Program-made: the position numbers and the translations under genes
Origin: Methanoregulaceae archaeon
Lineage (GTDB): Archaea > Halobacteriota > Methanomicrobia > Methanomicrobiales > Methanospirillaceae
Direction: 5' to 3'
Assembly (NCBI GenBank): GCA_028679405.1
Contig: JAJRBP010000228.1
Location: 1-5,702 of the forward strand
Length of the DNA: 5,702 nt
The notes under the pieces: model-generated
What the model was told of the DNA's origin: nothing
Database searches by the model: none
The model's input: the letters and a program-made list of their open reading frames with translations, nothing else
In this document: piece after piece, positions 1-5,466 of the stretch
How positions within the stretch are numbered: position 1 is the first letter of the stretch
Layout: each line of letters opens with the position of its first letter

Positions 1-2
1 GA

Positions 3-31
3 TTAACATTCATCGCCGTGATGAATGTTAA
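3..31. promoter_or_regulatory. Perfect 12-bp inverted repeat upstream of the UbiA gene (candidate operator 1)
   Basis: Arms TTAACATTCATC (3-14) and GATGAATGTTAA (20-31) are perfect reverse complements around the 5-nt spacer GCCGT. Each arm carries the 7-mer ATTCATC/GATGAAT. Positions 12-26 (ATCGCCGTGATGAAT) recur exactly, inverted, at 1031-1045 in front of the regulator gene. The repeat ends 21 bases before the UbiA start codon. No other TATA-like element lies between it and the gene, so it probably overlaps the core promoter. The right arm also contains the in-frame TAA (29-31) that limits the UbiA frame upstream. An operator bound by a dimeric factor is the favoured reading. A terminator for an upstream gene is less likely because no T-run follows directly. 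Confidence 0.7.
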
Positions 32-52
32 CTGGAACCTCCTTTTCTTCTC

Positions 53-976
53 ATGGAAACTCAGTATGGAAATCCCGGATTCAGCCCCGGTATCTTTCTG
101 GGGGGAGCCGAGGGGAAGCTCAGGTCATTCTATGAATTCGTAATGTACAGCTCCCTCTTTGTCGCGTTCGCGGCTGCCGGAATGGTGTATACTTCCTATG
201 CGATTGAAGGGGTCATCCCGTCTGTCGCAGGGATTGCGATCATGTTCCTGGTCGCTTTTTCGGTATACAACCTCAACCGGAAAACGGATGAAGCAGAAGA
301 CTCGATCAACCATCAGGGCAGGTTTGCGTTTACAAAAAAGTTCGAAAAAGTGCTTTTTTTCTCGGCACTCGCCTGTTATGCCCTCGCCGTTTTCATCGCC
401 ATACCCTACGGCATTTTTCCAGTCCTGGTGACACTCGTGCCGCTCCTGGCCGGCATCCTGTACAGCGTACCCTGCCTCCCGCGCCGTATGCGTTATCGCC
501 GTCTGAAAGAGATTCCCGTCGTAAAAAACCTTGTCGTGGCCTTTGCATGGTCGCTGACTCTTACATTCCTGCCAGTCTCGGTTGGGGTGACATTTTCCCC
601 GATGAAGGTGCTGCTTGCATTCATTTTCTTTACAAGCTATGTGTTCATTGCCTCGACCATCCCTGACATCAGGGACCGCGAAGGTGACGCCCTGTCCGGC
701 GTCAGGACAATTCCCGTCATCCTTGGGGTGGAGCGTACCACGATGCTTCTCACAGGGATCAATCTCGCGGTCGGCGGATTTTCCGTCCTGATCAGTGTCA
801 GGATGCTCCCGGCTATATTCACTCTCATGCTTGCCGCAGGGGTCGCATATATTCATCTCTGCATCCATTCGTTCTACCATCTGAGAAGCAGGGATGTCGT
901 GTGCGACCTCCTGTCGGACGGCCAGTTTATAATCTTTGGCGGGGCGATCTGGGCGTTCAGGGGGATTTCCGGTTGA
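53..976 (+). CDS. UbiA-family membrane prenyltransferase
   Basis: This is a 307-residue polytopic membrane protein of the UbiA superfamily, which moves an isoprenoid chain from a prenyl diphosphate onto an acceptor within the membrane. Both Mg-diphosphate-binding motifs are visible. The first is N75-x3-D79-x3-D83 (NRKTDEAED). The second is D205-I-R-D208-x3-D212, followed by the usual G-x-RTIPV stretch (216-221). The segment YSVP (137-140), then K152 and the Trp at 166, is also family-like. About eight hydrophobic segments are seen (roughly 33-49, 55-72, 100-120, 122-139, 158-178, 184-202, 231-250, 253-272), with a possible ninth at 290-303. The ATG at 53 is the first start after an in-frame TAA at 29-31. 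No Shine-Dalgarno is seen, so a short leader or leaderless mRNA is likely. The first motif lacks the NDYFD-x-x-ID form of digeranylgeranylglyceryl-phosphate synthase, so archaeol synthesis is not the obvious role. The substrate is unknown. Confidence 0.9.
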   Translation: METQYGNPGFSPGIFLGGAEGKLRSFYEFVMYSSLFVAFAAAGMVYTSYAIEGVIPSVAGIAIMFLVAFSVYNLNRKTDEAEDSINHQGRFAFTKKFEKVLFFSALACYALAVFIAIPYGIFPVLVTLVPLLAGILYSVPCLPRRMRYRRLKEIPVVKNLVVAFAWSLTLTFLPVSVGVTFSPMKVLLAFIFFTSYVFIASTIPDIRDREGDALSGVRTIPVILGVERTTMLLTGINLAVGGFSVLISVRMLPAIFTLMLAAGVAYIHLCIHSFYHLRSRDVVCDLLSDGQFIIFGGAIWAFRGISG

Positions 977-1021
977 CGAGTCCTCCGGGTCGTATTCCCG
1001 CCTGCCAGTAAGTGTACCGCA

Positions 1022-1045
1022 GTGATGAATATTCATCACGGCGAT
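1022..1045. promoter_or_regulatory. Perfect 18-bp palindrome plus shared 15-mer (candidate operator 2)
   Basis: GTGATGAATATTCATCAC (1022-1039) is a perfect 18-bp palindrome made of two GATGAAT half-sites meeting at their AAT ends. Bases 1031-1045 are the exact reverse complement of 12-26 in operator 1. The element lies in the 165-base gap between the UbiA stop codon and the regulator start, about 65 bases upstream of the regulator's likely TATA box. The half-sites point inward here but outward in operator 1, so the shared unit is the half-site plus its GCCGT flank rather than the whole palindrome. Binding by the adjacent FilR1-type regulator is inferred, not shown. Confidence 0.7.
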
Positions 1046-1085
1046 TACTTTCCCGGTCTCGTTTGGGAATTGATTGCATGATCCC

Positions 1086-1112
1086 GATGAATACCGATAA
1101 CGCTATACTTTA
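1086..1112 (+). promoter_or_regulatory. Likely core promoter of the FilR1-type regulator with an adjacent GATGAAT half-site
   Basis: An A/T-rich box around CTATACTT (1103-1110) lies 32-39 bases before the ATG at 1142. This would put the transcription start near 1130-1135 and give a leader of about 10 bases. A further GATGAAT copy (1086-1092) lies just upstream, close to where transcription factor B would contact DNA. It is well placed to affect promoter use if it is a real half-site. The box is a weak match to the archaeal TATA consensus, so the call is tentative. Confidence 0.4.
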
Positions 1113-1141: not shown

Positions 1142-1960
1142 ATGTCACCTTTAGGGATGTATAATGAAAACCCCGCTTTGATACACTCTATTTTCTCTTC
1201 CCGCCTTAAAATCCAGATTTTACTCTCGCTCCTCGAGAGCGAACAGTCGCTTTCAGAACTTCGTAAAGTGACCGGAAGCGTCTCGCAGGCGCTCATTCCG
1301 AAGATCAGGAAGCTCGAGGATCTCACACTTGTCGAGTCATCCCGGGGGATGTACAAGCTCACCCCGTTCGGAAAGGTCCTCGCTTCCATCATCGGGCAAT
1401 ATATCAATGCGATGATCGGTATCAGCCGCCAGGGGGAGTTCTGGACCACTCACAAAATCGACGCCCTCCCACTGGAATTCCTCGATGAGATCGGCGACCT
1501 CCTGAACTCCGAGGTGATCTTCGATACCGGTGCCGATATCCTCCATGTATATACTCACTACCTTACGATACTCAAAGAGGCCGGGCATATCTACGGGATA
1601 TCATCAGTGATGAGCCCCGCCCTCGCCGAGGGACTCGCACCGCGAGTGCTTGAGGGGATACCGGTTGAGATCGTGGTAAGCAGGGAGGTGGTTGAACAGC
1701 TGCAGGCTGAACCGTATGCCGCACAGATCCGGACCCTGATCGGGTACGGCAACTTCAGGATCTGGGTTACCGAAGAGGCTTTGATGGTCGGCCTCACAGT
1801 TACGGACAGGGAACTCTCACTTGGACTCTATAAAAAGGACGGGAAGATGTACGACAGCTCAACCGATCTCTCGAGTTCCGACCCGGCCGCGGTAAAGTGG
1901 GGAGAAAAACTGTTTGGATATTACAGAAAACGATCCACGCGATTTTCATTCCATGACTGA
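1142..1960 (+). CDS. Winged-helix transcriptional regulator, DUF1724/FilR1 type
   Basis: This is a 272-residue cytoplasmic DNA-binding protein. Residues 13-80 form a winged helix-turn-helix: helix 1 IHSIFSSRLKIQILLSLLE, helix 2 SLSELRKVTG, recognition helix near SVSQALIPKIRKLE, and the wing ending YKLTPFGK. Residues 100-262 resemble the DUF1724 (FilR1 middle) domain of methanogen regulators, with the typical FWTTHKIDALP entry and a mixed alpha/beta C-terminal part. FilR1 proteins in Methanothrix are known as response-type regulators acting with the FilI kinase. No receiver domain is present here, so the input signal is unknown. The ATG at 1142 fits the TATA spacing. A TTG at 1121 and an ATG at 1157 are also in frame, and none has a clear Shine-Dalgarno. 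GATGAAT-containing inverted repeats precede both this gene and the UbiA gene, which suggests autoregulation and control of the neighbour. The exact target is inference. Confidence 0.85.
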   Translation: MSPLGMYNENPALIHSIFSSRLKIQILLSLLESEQSLSELRKVTGSVSQALIPKIRKLEDLTLVESSRGMYKLTPFGKVLASIIGQYINAMIGISRQGEFWTTHKIDALPLEFLDEIGDLLNSEVIFDTGADILHVYTHYLTILKEAGHIYGISSVMSPALAEGLAPRVLEGIPVEIVVSREVVEQLQAEPYAAQIRTLIGYGNFRIWVTEEALMVGLTVTDRELSLGLYKKDGKMYDSSTDLSSSDPAAVKWGEKLFGYYRKRSTRFSFHD

Positions 1961-4100: not shown

Positions 4101-4862
4101 CTAGAACCTGCCGATATAGCTGGCAGGTACCTTCACCTCGATCGTATAGTCGAGGATTCCCTGCGCCGATATCGAGAAGTAATACGTTTTTCCCGATCCT
4201 GTCTCGTAAAACTTTTCTGACCAGGGCCTTGGGTCGTATTTTGATGCATTCCTCTTCCAGAGTTCCGGGTCGATACCTCCGGGCGGTTCGATCGTCCTGA
4301 TGACCTGGTCAGGATGAGCTGCGTCGATCACCTTGATAGATAATTTCGGCATTCTCTCGGCTGCGGTAGCGCCGGAATATCCACCCATCGTCGGTTGCGA
4401 CAGGTTCGCGATATACCGGTCCGGATCCGGTCGCAGTGTGTAACTGATCTCCCAGTAGGGGAAGGGTATTGAGAACGACTCTGTCCTCCCGCTGCGGTTG
4501 CCGCTGATATTCGCATAAGTAACCAGTTTTGCGGGCTCAGTCGGGTTCGTCAGGTTTTCCGATTCCATTACTGAACGACGGGGCTGGCTGCCCGCATCTC
4601 CTGCGATCACCCCGACTCTTCTTTCCGAACCGTTCCAGGGTGTAGGTGCCGGCGTGGTAACTTTTGTCGGATACGGGGTGGAAGATCCTACAGAGGTATC
4701 AGGCCTCAGGAAAGGAGTGGGAGATGGTGTCGGAGTGGGGAGAAACGGCAGCGGCACGCCGATTTCCACGGGTTTGCCGGTGACCACAGGCTTGACGATG
4801 AACGCCATGACCATCACGATCGCAAGACCCAGTCCGACCATGATAAGATCGCGCCGTTCCAT
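4101..4862 (-). CDS. Membrane-anchored surface protein with Pro/Thr-rich linker, function unknown
   Basis: The family of this 253-residue protein is not recognised. After a short charged start (MERRD), residues 6-23 form one hydrophobic helix, an uncleaved signal anchor. A Pro/Thr/Ser-rich spacer follows (about 37-75, with TPTPSPTP at 43-50), typical of archaeal cell-surface stalks. The rest (about 110-250) is a probably beta-rich domain outside the cell, with blocks SIPFPYWEISYTLRPDPD and KTYYFSISAQGILDYTIEV. Six N-x-S/T sequons (N77, N103, N118, N122, N153, N205) suit archaeal N-glycosylation; N106 is followed by Pro and is excluded. There is no cysteine, no catalytic signature and no C-terminal anchor. 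The ATG at 4862 has AGGGG a few bases upstream. It is monocistronic here: convergent with eIF5A and divergent from RNase H. A binding or adhesion role is possible but not shown. Confidence 0.75.
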   Translation of the reverse strand: MERRDLIMVGLGLAIVMVMAFIVKPVVTGKPVEIGVPLPFLPTPTPSPTPFLRPDTSVGSSTPYPTKVTTPAPTPWNGSERRVGVIAGDAGSQPRRSVMESENLTNPTEPAKLVTYANISGNRSGRTESFSIPFPYWEISYTLRPDPDRYIANLSQPTMGGYSGATAAERMPKLSIKVIDAAHPDQVIRTIEPPGGIDPELWKRNASKYDPRPWSEKFYETGSGKTYYFSISAQGILDYTIEVKVPASYIGRF

Positions 4863-5446: not shown

Positions 5447-5466
5447 AGAGATATACCTTTAAGATT
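5447..5466 (+). promoter_or_regulatory. Likely promoter of the Mrp/Nbp35 ATPase gene
   Basis: The 80-base gap after RNase H holds an A/T-rich stretch AGAGATATACCTTTAAGATT with two possible TATA boxes (around ATATAC 5451-5456 and CTTTAAGA 5457-5464). The second is 25-32 bases before the ATG at 5489. A short C-run/G-run stem (CCCC/GGGG, near 5421-5432) lies upstream and may separate the two transcripts. Confidence 0.45.

Follow-up and report, generated by a model that had tools for sequence, protein, structure and literature searches.

A gene for a UbiA-family membrane prenyltransferase (ubiA) and a gene for a PF08350-type regulator form a recurring module, in which dimers of the regulator are predicted to sit on abutting 19-bp palindromes and likely repress ubiA until a ligand releases them. 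We assign this reading a probability of about two in three. The pairing of the genes and the element, with its spacing and its conservation, were read directly from the sequences.

Structure of the operator in the window

The window analyzed, 5,702 bp long, is the entire contig C153 of the draft genome of a Methanoregulaceae archaeon (1.86 Mb, 73% complete). The ubiA gene (53..976, plus strand) encodes 307 amino acids and matched PF01040 with an E value of 1.7e-20. The regulator gene (1142..1960, plus strand) encodes a one-component regulator of 272 amino acids, which according to Pfam, alignment and AlphaFold2 consists of a winged HTH domain (recognition helix at about residues 48-60) and a PF08350 FilR1_middle domain. 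Its open reading frame had been called mechanically from TTG 1121; alignment to relatives moved the start to ATG 1142. The window also contains genes for an NAD kinase and for an inositol-monophosphatase-family protein (minus strand), for an eIF5A-type factor and for an RNase H-type protein, and the first part of a P-loop gene that we take to be Mrp-like. A further gene (4101-4862, minus strand) encodes a 253-aa protein with a hydrophobic N-terminal segment and a Pro/Thr-rich stretch, for which neither a Pfam match at 1e-3 nor an NCBIfam match at 0.1 was found.

The original prediction held that ubiA and the regulator gene share an operator built on GATGAAT, and the repeats on which it was founded are all present. 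The inverted repeat before ubiA has 12-bp arms (3-14 and 20-31) that are 100% complementary across a 5-nt gap. The 15-mer at 12-26, described as recurring in inverted form, extends to 18 nt at 94% (12-29 with 1028-1045). The 18-bp palindrome GTGATGAATATTCATCAC was found at 1022-1039 and the half-site GATGAAT at 1086-1092. GATGAAT/ATTCATC occurs seven times in the window, a number reached by 0 of 200 dinucleotide shuffles; the expectation of 0.7 copies given earlier was too low, the computed value being 1.32.

The repeating unit proved to be a 19-bp palindrome, ATTCATC-N5-GATGAAT, and units abut head to tail with a gap of 0. Five of the seven GATGAAT copies fall within such operator units. The copies at 851-857 (within ubiA) and 1984-1990 (past the regulator gene) lie in no unit scoring above 9 and are probably due to chance. 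We rejected the view that 3-31 and 1022-1039 are two distinct site types, as both are frames of one 19-bp array: the 18-bp palindrome is the junction of the abutting units 1012-1030 and 1031-1049. The former (unit score 13.8) combines a degenerate left half-site with a right GATGAAT; the latter, ATTCATC-ACGGC-GATTACT (16.3), carries the inverted spacer of the ubiA unit at 8-26. The two-unit score at 1012-1049 was 24.1, and none of 100 shuffles scored as high. A weak unit at 1074..1092, ending in the half-site 1086-1092, scored 10.9; it is uncertain and near noise, a presumably meaningless place at 5464 scoring 9.7 in the same scan.

The window begins inside the ubiA operator. Positions 1..7 are GATTAAC, the right half-site of the first unit, followed within the inverted repeat by the second unit ATTCATC-GCCGT-GATGAAT (8..26), which is conserved in relatives and scores 26.6 of a possible 27.7. 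Read in the direction of the window, C83, another contig of this genome, terminates in ...TTATTTATCACTCCGTTTCAAATTAATCGCGGCGATTAACATTCAT and shares a 13-nt overlap with window positions 1-13 (GATTAACATTCAT). The C83 end supplies the missing left half of the operator and a TATA-like box, and the joined sequence fits the operator of relatives. From the overlap and this fit we infer that C83 adjoins C153, the assembly break falling inside the ubiA operator, with 13 nt common to both contig ends. The first gene of C83, divergent from ubiA, encodes a response regulator, and a related gene is found near ubiA in nine other loci. The consensus before ubiA in the family of the window is ATATTTATCACGGnTTTCAn-ATTCATC-GCTGC-GATGAAy-ATTCATC-nnnnn-AATGAATGT, and the fourth position of the half-site in the first unit is C or A. 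In the promoter consensus, a TATA-like ATTTATC precedes the first half-site by exactly 19 bp, the length of one unit; it resembles ATTCATC and may represent a third, degenerate unit overlapping the TATA box.

Conservation of the element at ubiA promoters

Relatives compared included Methanoregula, Methanolinea, Methanoculleus, Methanogenium and Methanofollis. From 89 ubiA upstream regions, one that was too short (L134) and 25 duplicates were removed, leaving 63 non-redundant regions in which the window was represented by the joined C83-C153 sequence. Orthologous ubiA-regulator pairs carry the motif, as an operator shared by such pairs implies: the three-half-site motif was found in 57 of the 63 regions at p <= 0.01 against their own shuffles, the other six lying at p 0.055-0.86. 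Between the start of the element and the approximate start codon of ubiA lie 42-98 bp (median 66). In the alignment, the UbiA proteins share 37-47% identity with that of the window, except for L136 with 29%. The loci are related, and the counts are not independent events.

A four-half-site seed gave a similar picture, 55 of the 63 regions scoring at least 20 of 28, a score reached by 3 of 3150 shuffles and by none of 63 coding-sequence controls. This count includes L027 and L029, which reach 20 in the wrong register; L022 and L026 reach 19, also in the wrong register. The relaxed three-half-site motif recovered the genus of these four loci, L027 remaining doubtful. Among 294 spacings tested over the 63 promoters, 5/0/5 was the best with a score of 1425 (next 1284; median 982). 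Full flanks were available for 24 of 46 training sites; in these, the information content was 1.55 bits per column in the half-sites and 0.94 in the spacers; it was 1.00 in the 22 bp on the TATA side and only 0.25 from -60 to -23.

A strict one-unit pattern, allowing at most one mismatch, matched in 38 of 108 family genomes, whereas a reversed control pattern matched in none. Matches occurred in 30 of the 39 genomes with a UbiA ortholog (24 at the ubiA promoter and six elsewhere) and in eight of the 69 without UbiA, four of the latter matches lying inside open reading frames. Matches at places other than ubiA say little in either direction.

Association of the element with the regulator gene

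A regulator ortholog (E <= 1e-60) was detected in 38 of the 39 UbiA genomes. It lies beside ubiA in 37 of them and on a separate contig in one (G058). The remaining UbiA genome, G065, carries just a stop-containing UbiA fragment and gave no regulator match at 1e-30. When gene families were counted across 57 loci, ubiA was present in 55, the regulator in 51 and any other family in 12 at most. The order of the two genes varies: ubiA comes first in loci of the Methanoregula and Methanolinea type, and the regulator comes first in those of genus g17, Methanoculleus, Methanogenium and Methanofollis.

A PF08350 regulator gene is nearby in 56 of the 57 element-bearing loci, and the remaining one, L011, ends at a contig edge. 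Conversely, no regulator match (E <= 1e-8) was obtained in the covered DNA of the element-less loci L098, L122, L135, L138 and L139, the coverage being short on one side in L135 and about 3 kb a side in L139. The motif is thus missing where the regulator is missing in five of the six element-less loci, in line with the originally proposed link. In the sixth, L136, the recognition helix of the regulator reads TGASSTAAIHALREL and so differs from TGSxSQALIPKIR and its close variants. BL5_bin.12 contains two ubiA copies, one with regulator and element (L107) and one without both (L122).

Five of 43 genomes with the regulator gave no UbiA match (G076, G083, G085, G086 and G087). The last three are incomplete, so that their lack of UbiA may be only apparent. 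An element beside the regulator is clear in G083 and in G085-G087 and weak in G076. In G083 it lies between the regulator gene and a DsbD-type transmembrane gene (L170:3744-3781), the first unit scoring 23.4 and the second 8.7. The units at the corresponding place in G076 (L169:3532-3569) are weak, with scores of 9.0 and 9.7. The Pfam match of the DsbD-type gene narrowly misses the cutoff in G083 and exceeds it in G076, and in G076 genes that we take to be SelD/TusA/DsrE-like are found near the regulator locus. G085-G087 (genus g14) have a clear two-unit element about 170 bp after the regulator gene (L171:3490, L172:3819, L173:1346). Close behind it, no evident forward gene of 80 or more codons was found, and the element may be an orphan operator or have lost its target. 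The persistence of the element beside the regulator without ubiA argues for a tie to the regulator rather than to the ubiA transcript. On this pattern of sequences, the adjacent regulator is very probably the protein that binds the element.

Sites at the regulator's own gene and elsewhere in the genomes

The original prediction had the regulator controlling itself as well as ubiA. Comparison of the loci supports both parts but makes the own-gene site a minority feature. The scan of regulator promoters was all-or-none, eight of 55 loci scoring at least 12.6 and the other 47 at most -14.4. The eight are the window, L002-L005 (genus g15), and L022, L026 and L029 (genus g17). L107 and L123 had been dropped from the 57 loci, as their regulator gene is truncated at the start of the contig and the scan overran the ubiA operator. 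Self-control thus appears to be lineage-specific, and the ubiA operator would be the constant part. In the genome of the window, the regulator probably also controls itself via its weaker own copy, whose sites lie upstream of a likely TATA box recognized by eye at about 1103-1113.

Within the available 73% of the window's own genome, neither the exact unit nor the exact junction was found outside the window, which favors the original prediction. At up to two mismatches, ATTCATC-N5-GATGAAT matches at 16 places across the 1.86 Mb, of which two fall within the window; outside it, only C5:10482 is within one mismatch. Inspection of 15 of the 16 places revealed no 19-bp array outside the window. 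In the single-contig genomes G015, G069 and G070, the sole match within one mismatch is the ubiA promoter.

Arrays with a 19-bp step also exist away from ubiA in several genomes, e.g. G022, G032, G036, G058 and G095. They precede proteins that look secreted by eye, DUF6345 proteins or a sensor-kinase gene. G022 has three-unit arrays with an exact 19-bp step at L062:3986-4042, L064:3987-4043 and L065:4004-4060, before secreted-looking or DUF6345 proteins; a wider envelope regulon is possible there. Arrays away from ubiA could also belong to paralogous regulators.

Properties of the regulator and the UbiA enzyme

The regulator had been called FilR1-type. This name holds for the PF08350 FilR1_middle domain, which scored 114.1 bits against a cutoff of 27, and for the order of HTH and middle domain, which is that of FilR1 from Methanosaeta harundinacea. 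It does not hold for the protein as a whole: FilR1 carries at its C-terminus a receiver domain that is fed by FilI, whereas the regulator ends after the middle domain and gave no Response_reg match in Pfam. We therefore rejected it as a FilR1 ortholog; its build is that of a one-component TrmB-like regulator. The AlphaFold2 model (mean pLDDT 92.7) has the fold of the TrmB family, a winged HTH with a PLD-like effector domain (TrmBL2/TrmB-like). In the structure search, the regulator fitted TrmBL2 only domain by domain, the whole-chain rmsd being near 20 A. No TrmB Pfam model was matched at E <= 0.001, only PF08350 and, below its cutoff, PF25213; a profile search against the PDB yielded only 1yyv_A (E 0.0021). 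Identity to TrmB, TrmBL1/Tgr and TrmBL2 is 14-16%, and for the C-terminal domain the PLD-fold proteins FAM83B, Nuc and NucT score as high as the TrmB family. This predicted PLD/TrmB-like domain would serve as the sensor. Residues 45-58, the recognition helix, have a mean column identity of 0.84 compared with 0.58 overall.

UbiA has the two Asp-rich Mg-diphosphate motifs and the helical membrane fold of its superfamily. Residues N75/D79/D83 and D205/D208/D212 are invariant in 28 sequences, and the nearest solved folds are archaeal UbiA homologs (A. fulgidus UbiA, 4tq3, TM 0.61). An assignment as digeranylgeranylglyceryl phosphate synthase was rejected, the score with NF009521 being 38.2 bits against a cutoff of 296; a second UbiA of the same genome, on contig C119, passes this model with 348.5 bits. 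The nearest NCBIfam model is NF010117 (PRK13591), yet the window UbiA reached only 95.9 bits against its cutoff of 238. No conserved third gene names the pathway, as no further family is present in more than 12 of the 57 loci. The available part of PMC6315138 suggests a link of UbiA genes to methanophenazine in Methanosarcina and is silent on this locus.

The module spans two families of the order Methanomicrobiales, to which Methanoregula and Methanoculleus respectively belong, and is patchy within them, a UbiA ortholog (E <= 1e-30) being present in 39 of 108 family genomes and absent from 69. Some copies look broken: UbiA is in two frames in G024, and the reading of the regulator has an internal stop in G009, G097 and G099.

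UbiA proteins of the PRK13591/NF010117 type also lie beside a FilR1-type regulator, in G010, G034 (twice), G035, G036, G046 and G072. The two of these seven that were scored both pass NF010117 (440 and 286.9 bits). These pairs differ in their convergent gene order, and no GATGAAT units were found at their promoters. The convergent pairs (L164-L167, L174, L175 and L177) show other repeats there, e.g. TTTTAACGCCGTTAAAA in L177. The pairing of UbiA with a PF08350 regulator thus seems to have arisen, or to have been retained, on more than one occasion.

Predicted mode of action

In loci with a visible TATA-like box, the element is situated between this box and the ubiA start codon. An AT-rich 8-mer stands exactly 21 (or 21+19) bp before the first unit in 28 of 51 sites. 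It is found within 45 bp upstream of the element in 36 of 52 loci, and downstream too in 23 of 52; several GC-rich Methanoculleus promoters have no clear TATA box. Regulator dimers are predicted to bind the abutting palindromes at the ubiA promoter. With the element in this position, bound dimers would cover the start site. By analogy with TrmBL1/Tgr, they may well block RNA polymerase there and so switch ubiA off. The unit centers are 19 bp apart, about 1.8 helical turns; two dimers would therefore lie on nearly the same face of the DNA and could cooperate. A ligand at the C-terminal sensor domain would then release the regulator from the ubiA operator.

The regulator might instead activate ubiA, helping TBP/TFB or RNA polymerase from the bound element. 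MsrA and MsrB, which we assume to be PF08350 proteins, and FilR1 are the relevant precedents. FilR1 raised reporter expression, i.e. it was an activator, in the available part of PMC3991700, and activation by MsrA and MsrB is described in the accessible text of PMC11218639. The sites at the regulator promoter of the window, upstream of the likely TATA box seen by eye, would also suit an activator. The ubiA element, however, is downstream of the visible TATA-like box, and TrmBL1/Tgr repress when their site TATCAC-N5-GTGATA lies downstream of the TATA box, as far as the available portion of PMC4158304 goes. Activation is thus possible, but we consider it rather improbable.

A second alternative is that another regulator of the genome binds the element and that its place beside the regulator gene reflects coincidence or shared control. 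Further PF08350-type relatives exist in some genomes, and so do the extra arrays away from ubiA. Regulator and element, however, are present or absent together and survive together without ubiA, and the recognition helix is conserved; these findings argue against this idea and make it unlikely. Still less likely is an RNA leader with two hairpins in the ubiA 5' UTR. Each unit is indeed a perfect or near-perfect inverted repeat and probably transcribed, but varying pairs show little covariation, pair 24-34 excepted. Pair 4-16 was complementary at a frequency of 0.67 compared with 0.56 in shuffles (6.6% of which were as high) and pair 23-35 at 0.43 compared with 0.45; only 24-34 (0 of 500 shuffles) and weakly 6-14 (3%) exceeded shuffles. 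Moreover, the four half-sites have one sequence in common, and the element recurs before regulator genes and the DsbD-type gene. The RNA leader was accordingly set aside as unsupported. Chance repeats in AT-rich intergenic DNA, which two chance-like copies among the seven GATGAAT in the window might recall, are ruled out by the conservation of the element at 57 of 63 ubiA promoters and by 0 of 200 window shuffles scoring as high.

Discussion

We return to the reading that the regulator represses ubiA from the abutting palindromes, and compare it with known systems. FilR1 binds its own promoter by ChIP and EMSA according to the available part of PMC3991700, whereas binding by the regulator described here is predicted from sequence. 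The targets of FilR1 given there are methanogenesis genes, with activation reported, whereas the predicted target here is ubiA. A text search of the same paper found no binding motif, palindrome or inverted repeat in the text available.

MsrC and MsrX of Methanosarcina acetivorans have a two-domain build like that of the regulator. They consist of an HTH and DUF1724, presumably the older name of PF08350. This architecture is given in the accessible text of PMC11784639, and the Msr targets described in that of PMC11218639 are methanol methyltransferase operons; the likeness to the regulator is one of domain build. TrmB-family operators have another half-site sequence and consist of one site, in contrast to the two or more abutting sites found here.

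A literature search on UbiA or prenyltransferases in these methanogens together with a regulator returned no paper on such a link. As far as searched, the pairing, the operator and the target are new, and the kind of system, a local regulator with its operator, is an ordinary one. A regulator of the PF08350 group (FilR1/Msr-type) can now be provisionally assigned a defined DNA operator. The tandem 19-bp array persists as neighboring genes change and provides a clean case for studying the co-evolution of an archaeal regulator and its site.

These methanogens are not known to have a quinone or methanophenazine. It is conceivable, though we regard it as a long shot, that the module is an ancient switch across an order of hydrogenotrophic methanogens, in which UbiA would make an undescribed prenylated membrane molecule (a redox or carrier lipid) and the PF08350 domain would sense this molecule or the redox state that it reflects. 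In a sister lineage, this regulator and operator are followed not by ubiA but by a DsbD-type gene for thiol transport, which points towards a function in redox processes. With the module itself, an orphan prenyltransferase of the Methanomicrobiales is tied to a regulator with a likely ligand pocket, which makes a search for its product directly testable.
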